From NCBI GenBank assembly GCA_021773645.1, contig JAJFJU010000016.1, positions 1-64,000 of the forward strand: a stretch of 64,000 bases of DNA, written 5' to 3'. Source of the DNA: Gammaproteobacteria bacterium. Its GTDB lineage: Bacteria; Pseudomonadota; Gammaproteobacteria; HK1. The notes below the pieces were generated by a model. That model worked only from the letters and a program-made list of their open reading frames with translations. It was not told the DNA's origin and ran no database searches. Shown here in pieces: positions 10,410 to 18,975 of this stretch; the stretch's first letter is position 1, and each line of letters begins with the position of its first letter. Both the position numbers and the translations under genes were made by a program.

Positions 10410-13184
10410 TTAAAGTTGTTCGAGCAATTTATGTGCTTCATCTCGGCCCTGGAAATTATCTTTCCCGATGGCCAACGCTTTCTTCAATGCCTCTCGCGCC
10501 GCTGTTTTATCGCCTGCTTGGGCGAGGGCCGCGCCGAAGTGATAACCGATTTCGGGATTTTTGGGTGCCAGTTCCACGGCCCGGCGCAACAAACCAAGGC
10601 CCTGTTCCACTTTATCGTTCAACACCAGCAGCCAGCCGTAGGTATCGACGATTTCGGCGCGTTTAGGCAGCAAATCATGAGCCTGCCGGGCGTAGTCCAA
10701 GGCTCGTCGGTCGCCCTTGTTCTGGTAGAGCCAAGCAAGGTTGTTGAGGGCAATGATGTGCTTGGGCTGGCGTGTCAGCAGCTTTTCATAATGGCTAATA
10801 GCGAGTTCATCACGACCAGCAATCTGATCGATGCTGGCCAGGCTCAGACGTACCCGTTGATCCTTCGGGTGTGCTTTCAGCCATTTTCCCAAGCCCTTGT
10901 AGGCTGCTTCAGCCGCACCTGTGCCGCGCTGGGCATGATAACGCCGGATGGCGAGGGCCCCAGTGGGTTGCAGGGCCAAAGCTTTTTCATAGGACGCCAG
11001 CGCCTTAGCAGGTAGCTGTTCTACCATATTAATATCACCTTCAAGTAACAGTCCAGCCGCCGCCTTGGGGGCAAGTTTCCGGATTTTTGCGGCGATTAGG
11101 CGGGACTCTTTGAGTCTACCGGTACGCAGTTCCAGATTACCCAGGGCGATGAGGGTGGTCAGATTGTCGGGCGCAAGTTGCAGGGTTTTCTCCAGCGATG
11201 CACGGGTATTGGCGGCATCCCCGGCCTGGCTCTGGGCGAGGGCAAGGTGGAAATGGGCTTCCGCCTCACTGGGGTAGCGTTCGGTGAGGCCATGGAAGGT
11301 GGCGAGGGCGTCGTTGCGTTTACCATTGGCGAGTTGTGCGCGCCCAAGATTGAGCAGCACCACTGGGTTTTCTGGAGCCAGTTTGCGCGCTTCCTCGGCA
11401 ATAACCAGCGCCTCGTCACGCTTGCCACGCTGCAGTAGTCCGGCGACCAGCATGAGCCGTGGTTGTAGGGCGCGGGCATTGCTACGACGAGCCTGTTGCA
11501 GCAGTTCTATGCCCTTTTCAATTTTGCCGGCCTGGCCATGGATCCGGGCAAGGCCTACCAGCGCTAAGGTTTGAGTTGGGTGTTTGGCAATGATGGCCTC
11601 ATAGCGCTTTTGTGCGCCTGCCCGATCATCGCTCTGAATATCCATACGCGCCAAATTGAGCGCTGCCCCGATATAGTCAGGGTTTATCTCCAAGGCTTTT
11701 TGATACTGCTTGCGAGCTTGGACAGGAACCTTTTTTCCTTCAAAAGCAGCACCCATGAGATTCCAGGGAATGGGGTTTTCTGGTTGTTTTTCAGTGAGGC
11801 TATGAGCCGCCTCAAGGGCTTTATCAAAGTGCTTATTGCGCAGATGGGTGAATATCAATAGCACATCAGCTCGGTGAAATTTTGGATCGAGCTTCACCGC
11901 TGACTTAAGCTCACTAACCGCTTGCTCCGCTGAGCCTGTGGCGAGATGGCTAATGGCGAGTTGGGTACGAATGGCCGCGGCATCCGGTGCCAGCGCCGCA
12001 GCCTTTTCCAGATACTCTGCACCTTTAGCAAAATCCCGGCTGCTCATATAGGCGCTGCCGAGCAGGGCGAGCAGTTGGGGGTCTTTGCTCTCTGGCCGGA
12101 TGACCGCGAGCAAGGTTTTTACAGCCTCAGCGGCTTGACCCTGCTCCATTTGCACTGCAGCCAGAAGCTTGCGCGCGGGAATGTGACCTGGAAGGGCGGT
12201 AACAAAGCGCTCGAGAAAGGAGTGGGCTTGGTCAAACTCACGTTTTTCATAATGGATCGCCCCCATGAGTAGCAGGCTACGCATGTGATTAGGCTGAACG
12301 CTCAACACCTCGCGCAGTGCCTGCTGGGCGCTATCAATATCCCGTCGTTGTTGTGCCGCTACAGCACGCAGATAATTCACCAGTGGGTGTTTTGAACTTG
12401 CTTTGGTCAATACCGCAAGTTGCTCTTCGGCCCCTTCGGTGTTTTCCAGTGCCAGGAAACTACGGGCCAGACCGAGGCGTGCGCCTGCATTATTGGGGGA
12501 TAGTGTGAGAGCTTCCTGGAAGGCCGATTGCGCCGCTTCGAAGCGAGATTGAGAAAATTCAAGCTCACCTTTCAGCATCCAGGCCTGAACATCCTTGCTG
12601 GAGACCTCTAGCGTGCGATCCAACTGTTTTTCCGCTTCCTCAAACTTGCGTTGACTGAGAGCGATGATCGCCAGGCCGCGTTGGGCCTCGGCATTTTTCG
12701 GGTCCAGTTCCAGCGCTTTGTTGAAAGCAGAACGAGATTTTTCAGGCTTATTAAGGCCGAGGTAGGCCTGGGCGCGGAATAGGTTCAGGGATTTTTCACC
12801 CAGCTCATCCTGCGGAGTCCCCAAGCGTCCCAAGACTTCCTCGAACTTACCTTGGAGTAGCAGGGCACGCAGCAGAACCGGCTGGAGTTCGCTGCCTTTA
12901 TAGCCCAGATCTCGGGCCCGCCGGATTTCTTTGGTGGCGGCGGCACCCTGACCCAGCTGCAGATAGATATTGCCCAGTTTCCAGCGAGCATCGCGATGTT
13001 CCGAATCCTTTTGCAGGACATTTTTCAGCTCAATGACGGCCTCACGAAACTGTCCTTCGGCAATGTATTTATCGGCATTTTTAAGATGCTCCTCAACGCC
13101 ATCACCACAAGCACTAAGGCTGAAAAACAGGAGAAAAACAAAGTAACGGATGGCCGCAGGATGGGCACGGTTTAAAATTGCCAT
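10410..13184 (-). CDS. prsT: PEP-CTERM system TPR-repeat lipoprotein PrsT
   Basis: A 924-residue lipoprotein made almost wholly of tetratricopeptide repeats. The signal peptide ends in the lipobox LSAC, giving lipidated Cys26. Repeats such as AEGQFREAVIELKNVLQKD recur every 34 residues to the C-terminus. Length, lipobox and setting fit PrsT, the large TPR protein found beside exosortase A loci, which may act in export or assembly of exopolysaccharide or PEP-CTERM proteins at the membrane. The 201-residue membrane protein gene lies 74 bases upstream and galE 23 bases downstream, both on the same strand. Exact function is not established. Confidence 0.92.
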   Translation of the reverse strand: MAILNRAHPAAIRYFVFLLFFSLSACGDGVEEHLKNADKYIAEGQFREAVIELKNVLQKDSEHRDARWKLGNIYLQLGQGAAATKEIRRARDLGYKGSELQPVLLRALLLQGKFEEVLGRLGTPQDELGEKSLNLFRAQAYLGLNKPEKSRSAFNKALELDPKNAEAQRGLAIIALSQRKFEEAEKQLDRTLEVSSKDVQAWMLKGELEFSQSRFEAAQSAFQEALTLSPNNAGARLGLARSFLALENTEGAEEQLAVLTKASSKHPLVNYLRAVAAQQRRDIDSAQQALREVLSVQPNHMRSLLLMGAIHYEKREFDQAHSFLERFVTALPGHIPARKLLAAVQMEQGQAAEAVKTLLAVIRPESKDPQLLALLGSAYMSSRDFAKGAEYLEKAAALAPDAAAIRTQLAISHLATGSAEQAVSELKSAVKLDPKFHRADVLLIFTHLRNKHFDKALEAAHSLTEKQPENPIPWNLMGAAFEGKKVPVQARKQYQKALEINPDYIGAALNLARMDIQSDDRAGAQKRYEAIIAKHPTQTLALVGLARIHGQAGKIEKGIELLQQARRSNARALQPRLMLVAGLLQRGKRDEALVIAEEARKLAPENPVVLLNLGRAQLANGKRNDALATFHGLTERYPSEAEAHFHLALAQSQAGDAANTRASLEKTLQLAPDNLTTLIALGNLELRTGRLKESRLIAAKIRKLAPKAAAGLLLEGDINMVEQLPAKALASYEKALALQPTGALAIRRYHAQRGTGAAEAAYKGLGKWLKAHPKDQRVRLSLASIDQIAGRDELAISHYEKLLTRQPKHIIALNNLAWLYQNKGDRRALDYARQAHDLLPKRAEIVDTYGWLLVLNDKVEQGLGLLRRAVELAPKNPEIGYHFGAALAQAGDKTAAREALKKALAIGKDNFQGRDEAHKLLEQL

Positions 13185-14860: not shown

Positions 14861-15742
14861 GTGGTAAGTGAATTTCGATTTTCCTGCACCGCCTGCGGTC
14901 GTTGTTGTAATGCACCTCCGGGCATGCGCCTTGCTGAGGCCTTCAGGCTTTCAGACATTTTCATTCCCGGGCTACGTTTTCGCACCCACGTTATTGCCGA
15001 CCCGAGCGATCCCGATGGCCTCTATGCCTGGAACGGTGGATCCAGTTTTCGTCTCTCGCCACCGCGTAAGAAAGAGTTTGCAGAAGCCATGCAGGACTTT
15101 TGTCGAGAGCGCTATCGGTTTATAGCCCGCCATCCAATCTATCCCTTCGATCTGTTCGTTTCGGCTATCTCCGAGCACGTGAGCCTTGAGCGAGGCTTAT
15201 GTCCTGCTCTGGCAGACAAAGCCTGCTCCATCTACGAGCGTCGGCCGTCTGTGTGCAAAACCGTGCCCCTGGACGGTACCGTACCTGAGGCATTCCAGGG
15301 CGAGGCGCTGGCTTTTTTCCGCGGATATATCACCCATGCTGAAGATGGAGAGTGTGATTTTGAGGCGTCCGCTCCAGTGATGTTTGAAGGAGCGCGCATC
15401 GTGGCGAAAGAGGATCGGGATGCCTGGCTCCAGACTACAGCCAAGTGTGAAACTGCGGAGCAGCTAATTGATAGTCACCTTTTAGGCGCTATGGAAATGA
15501 CCCCGGAAAAACTCTGGAATGTGTCCGAATCCGGCTTTCCATTAATCACTGATTTTTCACCGGCGGTGGAAAGTCTTGCTAAAGAAGATGCGGAAGCAGG
15601 CAATATTTTCTACCAAAATCAATTGCAGGTGATTGACCGGGAGTTGGCTCAATCTGGTGAAACTACTAGTTCTGAATTATTAAGGCAACTGACCAACTTC
15701 CGGGACCGCTACGTAGAGATTCTTCAGAAAAAGGCATTCTGA
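14861..15742 (+). CDS. YkgJ-like cysteine-cluster protein
   Basis: A 293-residue soluble protein with the N-terminal CTACGRCC cluster and later Cys residues in LCPALADKACSIYERRPSVCK, the pattern of the YkgJ/zinc- or iron-binding cysteine-cluster family. The function of that family is unsettled; metal binding is expected. The GTG start at 14861 is 6 bases after the PilZ gene stop, so the two are likely cotranscribed. No signal peptide or membrane segment is visible. The C-terminal 130 residues are mostly helical and not recognised. Confidence 0.82.
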   Translation: MVSEFRFSCTACGRCCNAPPGMRLAEAFRLSDIFIPGLRFRTHVIADPSDPDGLYAWNGGSSFRLSPPRKKEFAEAMQDFCRERYRFIARHPIYPFDLFVSAISEHVSLERGLCPALADKACSIYERRPSVCKTVPLDGTVPEAFQGEALAFFRGYITHAEDGECDFEASAPVMFEGARIVAKEDRDAWLQTTAKCETAEQLIDSHLLGAMEMTPEKLWNVSESGFPLITDFSPAVESLAKEDAEAGNIFYQNQLQVIDRELAQSGETTSSELLRQLTNFRDRYVEILQKKAF

Positions 15743-17060: not shown

Positions 17061-17094
17061 TAAAAATAAAATGCCCCGCGCTGGGGCGGGGCAT
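17061..17094 (-). terminator. Terminator of the small PEP-CTERM gene
   Basis: The stem TGCCCCGC / GCGGGGCA (17072-17093) is followed on the minus strand by ATTTTATTTTTA (complement of 17061-17070). It sits 28 bases past the stop of the 57-codon PEP-CTERM gene, supporting that this short frame is a transcribed gene. Confidence 0.82.
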
Positions 17095-17121
17095 TGGTCG
17101 GCAATAAAGAACGCCGACGAC

Positions 17122-17295
17122 TTACTTTTTTTTGCGCCTGCTGAATGCTATCCCGGCCAGGCCGAGGCCCAACAGGATGAGGGTGGATGGTTCAGGCACG
17201 CTAATGTCGGGAAGGGGGCCTGTGCCACCGGCAAAGGCCGCCGTCGTTGCCAGACTTAAGAGAGCGGTGCTGGCTAATTTATAAAGGGTTTTCAT
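17122..17295 (-). CDS. Minimal PEP-CTERM protein (57 residues)
   Basis: This short gene encodes a signal peptide (MKTLYKLASTALLSLATTAA, cleavage probably after AFA at 23), a linker of about ten residues (GGTGPLPDIS) and a complete PEP-CTERM tail: VPEP, a glycine-rich hydrophobic helix and the basic end SRRKKK. It should therefore be exported, recognised and cleaved by exosortase A at the inner membrane, leaving only a very short peptide. The Shine-Dalgarno AAGGAG is 8 bases before the ATG. A terminator follows (17061-17094) and a sigma-54 type element precedes it (17379-17396). Role unknown: perhaps a released peptide, an exosortase decoy or a remnant. Confidence 0.88.
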   Translation of the reverse strand: MKTLYKLASTALLSLATTAAFAGGTGPLPDISVPEPSTLILLGLGLAGIAFSRRKKK

Positions 17296-17378
17296 GGGTT
17301 GTATCTCCTTCCAAAAATGACGTATGGGCCAGTGGGACCCGTCGACAACGGGGGAGTCCTAGCTGCTGGAAAGGAAGG

Positions 17379-17396
17379 GAGCAAGACTCGCGCCAA
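17379..17396 (-). promoter_or_regulatory. Sigma-54 (-24/-12) promoter of the small PEP-CTERM gene
   Basis: On the minus strand the sequence reads TTGGCGCGAGTCTTGCT, close to the RpoN consensus TGGCAC-N5-TTGCW. The invariant GG (17394-17393) and GC (17382-17381) have the required 10-base spacing. Start of transcription would fall near 17369, giving a leader of about 75 bases. Exosortase A loci often encode the PrsK/PrsR pair, and RpoN-dependent expression of PEP-CTERM genes is known in floc-forming bacteria. Confidence 0.72.
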
Positions 17397-18068
17397 CATG
17401 TAAATACGGCTATGTATCAATGGGATAGGAGAAGCTGCTGACGGGCAGTTCACTTAAGTGTAAAGAATAATGACGGTTTCTATCCCATTTTGGCTCCATT
17501 ACCACCGCGACATGCACCTGATATCACACAAACTGATTGTTAATCTGATGGTTACGGGTTTTTTGGACAGTAAAAAATCCTGACAAAGTGCGGGGCGAGC
17601 AGCCGGTTTTTAGCAGGCGGCGGTGAAATGGTTCCTCGGGACGGATAAATCTGGGCGCTGGGAGCAAGTCGTATCGTGCGCGTGAGGAAATGCCCGATTA
17701 AGATCCGAATCCGCTGTCTAGGCCTGAATAAGCCAACGTCCGGCTTGGGGGAGGTTACGTGACTGAATGATGTTCTCTGCTGGTCTAACATTCAGGCTGG
17801 ACGAAACGCTTGGCGAGTAACTTGAGAGCCAGTAATACCGTGCTTCTCAGCGTGTTCATAGTCCTTTTTTCCAGGATTCTTTTACATATACTGGTTCCTG
17901 TTAACATTTTGATAAATAAAAGGTTGGTGTGAAATGGTGGCGCATTTCCTTTGTTTTGGCGCTGAAATAGGCTGAAAAGTGTCAGGATTTTTTACATCTT
18001 TCCGCTTGTTTCTGCATAGTTCCCTGAGATATCTTCATATCCCATTGATAAATAATACATTTATTATG
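17397..18068. other. Intergenic region between divergent PEP-CTERM genes
   Basis: This stretch of about 670 bases lies between the two sigma-54 elements. It should hold upstream activator sites for both genes, but I cannot define one by eye. The frame at 17552-17791 on the minus strand has no Shine-Dalgarno and no recognisable product. The last 200 bases (17860-18068) are AT-rich compared with the rest of the window. Confidence 0.45.
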
Positions 18069-18145: not shown

Positions 18146-18712
18146 ATGAAATTAAAAATGAAGTTGTTGGCATTCTTTTACGCTGCTTTGCTCAGCGGGA
18201 TGGCCCAGGCCGGCCCGATACTTGATACTCCAATCTTGGGCGGTGCTTTGCTGGTGGCGAGCAATGGCAACGTGCATGCCGAGTTTCTGGGTAGCGATGC
18301 GGGATATTTTAATACCCTTTATCTGGGTGATGATGAAATATTCAATAAGTCCACTCCCGTGAATGGCGATCTGATTGATCTGGGGGTTTTCAGTGCTGGT
18401 ACAGAACTGGAATTCAGAATCCATGTCCGCGATACGGGATTGAGCTTCTTTAGTGGCGACCGTTCCCGCAACCCTGATGGCCTGGCGCATGCAGAGGCGA
18501 TCACCAGCCTTGTGGACGATGTCTTCGTGACCACGGTAGGATTTGAAGACCTGCTGGGTGGCGGCGACCGGGATTACAACGATTTCATGTTCAGGCTGAC
18601 CAACGTAATTGACCCACCCTCCAGCGGAGCTGCGGCTCCCGAGCCGGTTACCCTTGCTCTCCTGGGCCTTGGTCTGGTCGGAATAGGTTTCAGCCGGCGT
18701 AGAGCAACGTAA
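18146..18712 (+). CDS. PEP-CTERM protein with a DUF4114-like domain
   Basis: A 188-residue exported protein. The signal peptide is residues 1-22 (to GMAQA). The mature part ends in GFEDLLGGGDRDYNDFMFRL, the acidic, probably calcium-binding signature of DUF4114-type domains in extracellular proteins. PEP is at 165-167, followed by the hydrophobic helix and the basic end SRRRAT, so it is an exosortase A substrate delivered to the surface or matrix. The ATG at 18146 is chosen over the one at 18107 because the signal peptide then starts MKLKMK; GGAAG lies about 11 bases before it. A sigma-54 element lies upstream and a terminator downstream. Confidence 0.9.
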   Translation: MKLKMKLLAFFYAALLSGMAQAGPILDTPILGGALLVASNGNVHAEFLGSDAGYFNTLYLGDDEIFNKSTPVNGDLIDLGVFSAGTELEFRIHVRDTGLSFFSGDRSRNPDGLAHAEAITSLVDDVFVTTVGFEDLLGGGDRDYNDFMFRLTNVIDPPSSGAAAPEPVTLALLGLGLVGIGFSRRRAT

Positions 18713-18899: not shown

Positions 18900-18975
18900 T
18901 GGCTCCCCCGGACGGGCTCGAACCGCCGACCTAGTGATTAACAGTCACCCGCTCTACCAACTGAGCTACAGGGGA
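18900..18975 (-). tRNA. tRNA-Asn (GTT)
   Basis: A 76-base cloverleaf on the minus strand starting TCCCCTGTAGCTCAGTTGG. The anticodon loop is CTGTTAA with anticodon GTT, the T loop is TTCGAGC, and CCA is encoded at the 3' end. It lies between the PEP-CTERM terminator and the aminotransferase gene. No integration scar is evident. Confidence 0.96.

Follow-up and report, generated by a model that had tools for sequence, protein, structure and literature searches.

A 57-codon PEP-CTERM gene with the promoter layout of a PrsR/sigma-54 regulon and only a short linker between signal peptide and sorting tail

Proteobacterial PEP-CTERM genes have been described as single-gene units with a large upstream region that contains motif 1, a spacer of near 63 nt and the sigma-54 motif 2 (PMC1569441). 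For pepA of Aquincola, transcription is RpoN-dependent with a mapped −24/−12 start, and the protein is processed in vivo, where the signal peptide is apparently cleaved; C-terminal cleavage of this protein was proposed but is not settled (PMC9850573). In the literature consulted, cutting by an exosortase close to PEP has so far the status of a model. Among exosortase targets, the PExPT-CTERM protein (targ_of_XrtJ, NCBIfam TIGR04200) is represented by a model of 57 positions.

The small gene analysed here resembles the XrtA system with PrsK/PrsR/PrsT control (PMC1569441) in its signal peptide, PEP-CTERM tail and organisation as a single-gene unit, as well as in its large upstream region, motif 1, spacer near 63 nt, motif 2 and the accompanying regulators. 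An extracellular domain between signal peptide and tail, which is usual but not defining for XrtA substrates, is absent, unlike in the usual substrates, its place being taken by 11 linker-like residues. With the floc-forming protein PepA (NF033554) of Aquincola/Zoogloea, the small gene shares the RpoN-dependent type of promoter, the signal peptide and the tail, whereas PepA is full-size and the small ORF matches NF033554 in the tail only (residues 32-57). The size of the small protein equals that of the TIGR04200 model, but its score of 12.5 bits is below the family cut-off of 40 and does not make it a member, and its tail is of the PEP type with XrtA as the host exosortase, in contrast to PExPT and XrtJ. 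TIGR04200 suggests that very small proteins form a class of exosortase substrates, and it is a partial precedent.

The features of the locus are listed below, with positions in the window, which is the whole 64-kb stretch of DNA analysed.

17070..17095, minus strand: intrinsic terminator (hairpin search and folding z)
17122..17295, minus strand: minimal PEP-CTERM gene of 57 codons, stop codon included (ORF list and profile matches)
17125..17199, minus strand: PEP-CTERM sorting domain (VPEP, hydrophobic helix and basic cluster), residues 33-57 (profile matches)
17197..17229, minus strand: core GGTGPLPDISV, residues 23-33 (alignment with the pre-PEP linker of long PEP-CTERM proteins)
17230..17295, minus strand: predicted signal peptide MKTLYKLASTALLSLATTAAFA, residues 1-22, with the presumed cut after AFA (sequence and signal-peptide heuristic)
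17302..17310, minus strand: Shine-Dalgarno region GGAAGGAGA (read from the sequence)
17380..17396, minus strand: sigma-54 promoter box (motif 2) TTGGCGCGAGTCTTGCT (weight matrix)
17415..17427, minus strand: IHF-like element TATCCCATTGATA at a fixed position upstream of the −24 box (promoter comparison)
17459..17474, minus strand: proximal motif 1 (predicted PrsR site) GTCATTATTCTTTACA, 62 nt from motif 2 (weight matrix)
17569..17584, minus strand: distal motif 1 GTCAGGATTTTTTACT, 172 nt from motif 2 (promoter comparison)
10410..13184, minus strand: PrsT (TIGR02917, 817 bits), part of the XrtA/PEP-CTERM system (profile match)
18149..18712, plus strand: ordinary PEP-CTERM gene (DUF4114) with the same promoter type, divergent from the small gene (profile and promoter score)

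The coordinates and the 57-codon length given in an earlier note on this DNA proved correct, and the minus strand is now added. The 57-aa product of the ORF running from 17295 to 17122 is MKTLYKLASTALLSLATTAAFAGGTGPLPDISVPEPSTLILLGLGLAGIAFSRRKKK, which is laid out as MKTLYKLASTALLSLATTAAFA / GGTGPLPDISV / PEPSTLILLGLGLAGIAFSRRKKK. Profile searches revealed a match to PF07589 (E = 2.4e-10, 40.5 bits; cut-off 20.7) and to TIGR02595 (35.7 bits; cut-off 16), with the PEP motif, hydrophobic helix and basic cluster all represented, and when the PF07589 matches were ranked across 229 genomes of the class, the tail of the small ORF had the top score. Inspection and a simple heuristic identified a lysine in the n-region, a hydrophobic core and an AFA/GG junction at the N-terminus, conforming with a signal peptide. 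The 11 core residues align with the pre-PEP linkers of long proteins, such as NGGGPGPVPSPAPEP (L086) and FGGTGNGSVSVPEP (L054), so that the signal peptide joins linker and tail directly. The previous description of a PEP-CTERM protein cut down to a signal peptide and a sorting tail is supported. If the preprotein were cut at AFA/GG and just before or after PEP, the predicted product would have 11 to 14 residues, in keeping with the "about ten" estimated before.

The machinery for such a substrate is encoded in the same genome. XrtA, PrsR and PrsK were found by profile search to be grouped on one contig (C3), with XrtA scoring 240.6 bits against TIGR03109 (cut-off 208), as expected of a cognate exosortase, and PrsR and PrsK scoring 726 and 834 bits, respectively. 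XrtA was the only match to the exosortase model in the genome. Besides PrsT, the window encodes FemAB and an XrtA-type amidotransferase, the latter under the cut-off of its XrtA-specific model. A second PrsT-like protein of 1001 aa (TIGR02917, 575 bits) is encoded beside PrsK/PrsR/XrtA (L083:16876-19881), and a minus-strand ORF of 4302 codons lies near the XrtA cluster (L084:2322-15230).

The strongest evidence for the small gene is its predicted promoter, whose layout is the one seen at other PEP-CTERM genes in the genus. Motif 1 and the sigma-54 motif 2, the marks of the proteobacterial regulon, are both situated upstream, with 84 nt between the ATG and motif 2. The comparison set consisted of 17 promoters that belong to other PEP-CTERM genes in the three genomes available for the genus. 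The double motif 1 is spaced at 172/62 nt in the small gene and at 173/62 nt in L016, while the other promoters of the genus have distal spacings of 168-240 nt and proximal spacings of 48-84 nt (mostly 72-74). An exact-pattern search was too strict, and a weight matrix was used instead to score the 64-kb window and the fetched loci. With the matrix trained without the small gene, the held-out score of its promoter was 37.2 bits, a value to be read as somewhat inflated, as are the other bit values, because the training set included orthologous pairs from the congeners. In 20 random sequences of 64 kb, no site scored above 22.2, and the sole higher-scoring site in the window (48.7) belongs to the DUF4114 PEP-CTERM gene. 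The sigma-54 element claimed in the earlier note was thus found, together with two enhancer-like copies of motif 1, and the statement that the gene looks expressed is backed by the full PrsR/sigma-54 promoter layout, which is stronger than what the earlier reader could show.

A third element of fixed position, TAACnnnTTGATA-like and of IHF type, was observed between about 30 and 18 nt ahead of the sigma-54 box. It occurs in nearly all of the PEP-CTERM promoters compared (L002-L027), the copy of the small gene having one mismatch. The consensus of the IHF site is YAANNNNYTGATW. The 2006 description gives two promoter motifs, and the IHF-like element is not among them (PMC1569441).

The signals around the reading frame are also intact. 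The Shine-Dalgarno sequence AAGGAGA is located about 8 nt upstream of the ATG, and the terminator (17095-17070) consists of a 10-pair stem and a U-tract (z = −5.6) positioned 27 nt beyond the stop codon; both elements had been claimed before and were seen again here. Such a short, monocistronic unit with a strongly structured 3' end could also be taken for a regulatory RNA whose ORF is incidental or secondary, but the ORF occupies much of the predicted transcript and comes with a Shine-Dalgarno, a signal peptide and the best tail of the set, and no Rfam match was obtained, making this explanation very improbable. Even less credence is given to a chance ORF or an assembly artefact, as which a single occurrence might be read; the independent protein and promoter scores are far beyond chance, and on both sides of the unique segment the DNA is collinear with that of the congener G002. 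On sequence grounds, protein and promoter independently show the gene to be real. Because of the tail, the terminator, the layout and score of the promoter, and the presence of PrsK, PrsR, PrsT and XrtA, it is very probable that the small ORF is a true gene under PrsR/sigma-54 control.

A lack of conservation in close relatives had been named in the earlier note as refuting its idea, and this lack was observed in the genomes searched, so that conservation is not supported. No full-length homologue of the small gene was found anywhere in the two congeners (G001 and G002), in 369 genomes of the class at E 1e-7 or in 398 genomes of the phylum at E 0.001 (a sample overlapping with that of the class), and neither viral contigs nor plasmids revealed a relative. 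Two named genome contigs match the small ORF in the tail only. G002 retains the dehydrogenase and DUF4114 genes on either side but lacks a segment of about 740 bp with the small gene; in G001, phage-like genes follow the dehydrogenase (L053) and the DUF4114 gene is likewise absent. Among the genomes searched, the small gene is limited to one species, a pattern that gain in this genome (G000) and loss in G002 would fit equally. The absence weakens a conserved function; a real gene of recent origin is not refuted by it, since PEP-CTERM genes turn over fast, their sets being among the fastest evolving (PMC1569441). Elsewhere in G002, about 2.5 kb of extra DNA (L045 5936-8471) separates the orthologues of window positions 15731 and 15870.

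The same context bears on the idea that the locus is raw material for gene birth, with promoter, signal peptide, linker and tail accepting new surface domains; such acceptors would contribute to the rapid turnover that PEP-CTERM genes show. The small gene adjoins another PEP-CTERM gene and a tRNA-Asn, which is an integration site in G001, where a recombinase-bearing element abuts the tRNA-Asn beside aspC (L044). Presence and absence differ across all three congeners, and the rapid evolution of PEP-CTERM sets points in the same direction. However, no longer descendant with the same signal peptide or promoter was found, and evolution is not normally taken to select for a use still to come, so that such a role would be a by-product at best; we regard this explanation as unlikely. 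The tRNA-Asn next to the PEP-CTERM pair is at window positions 18900-18975.

Our preferred explanation, held with slightly better than even confidence, is that the small ORF is a PrsK/PrsR-sigma-54 regulon member encoding an "empty" XrtA substrate that is lineage-specific and whose peptide probably has no evolved function yet. When PrsR is active, sigma-54 RNA polymerase would produce a monocistronic transcript some 300 nt long. The preprotein of 57 residues would enter the Sec pathway, signal peptidase I would cut after AFA, and the PEP-CTERM helix would anchor the 35 residues left over in the inner membrane, until XrtA cuts near VPEP and passes the linker peptide of 11 to 14 residues to the matrix. 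The gene may have originated when a longer PEP-CTERM gene lost its globular middle, or as a cassette assembled without one, in this lineage only, and the peptide therefore probably lacks a function of its own. The most likely course is loss of the middle, leaving a lineage-specific cassette that would still be regulated and exported; this is favoured because the gene is absent from relatives and its core is linker-like. That such genes break is evident from fragmented PEP-CTERM genes elsewhere; no parent gene for the deletion was found.

The intact promoter, start, signal, tail and terminator are explained equally well by a functional gene, and this complete set of signals keeps the main rival alive, namely that the released GGTGPLPDISV(PEP), or its conjugate with a matrix carrier, has a job as a matrix component, as a signal or as a chain stopper that consumes XrtA or its acceptor. 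The earlier note had suggested a secreted peptide, an occupier of the exosortase or a regulatory decoy, roles that are still hypothetical. All elements for expression and sorting are intact and close to their consensus, and the 57-position TIGR04200 model makes very short exosortase targets a recognised kind. Against this stand the lack of a homologue in relatives, the resemblance of the core to a generic linker and the low TIGR04200 score, and we consider this rival distinctly less probable than the empty substrate. The more specific proposal that the exosortase system releases a dedicated peptide of 11 to 14 residues, or loads a matrix carrier, from a PrsR-controlled micro-substrate is judged somewhat more doubtful. 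If that proposal held, short peptides would be a product class of XrtA.

A regulated XrtA substrate of 57 residues with a product of 11 to 14 residues would be compact and easily tracked by mass spectrometry, and as a natural substrate it could reveal the position of the XrtA cut and what joins the new C-terminus. A gene stripped to its delivery parts also bears on the birth and death of the fast-changing PEP-CTERM surface proteins. Genes this short are under the usual size limits and may be under-counted.

The other PEP-CTERM frames fetched mostly have about 170-530 codons. Short frames of 63 (G073), 44 (G097), 102 (G059), 115 (G002) and 53 codons (G722) look like gene fragments and have no tail-adjacent signal peptide; a 28-codon frame in G174 is cut by a contig end, and the short frame in G492 encodes a complete protein, about 103 residues long, whose middle is rich in Gly, Ser and His. 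A likeness at the DNA level between the core and a hydantoinase-B-like gene of G002 (AGGTHLPDITV, E = 0.0135) was attributed to chance, because the genome of the small gene has no such match and the score is weak over many comparisons. Broken PEP-CTERM genes were observed in other genomes at L069 (a 115-codon frame) and L115 (in-frame stops), which fits fast turnover.
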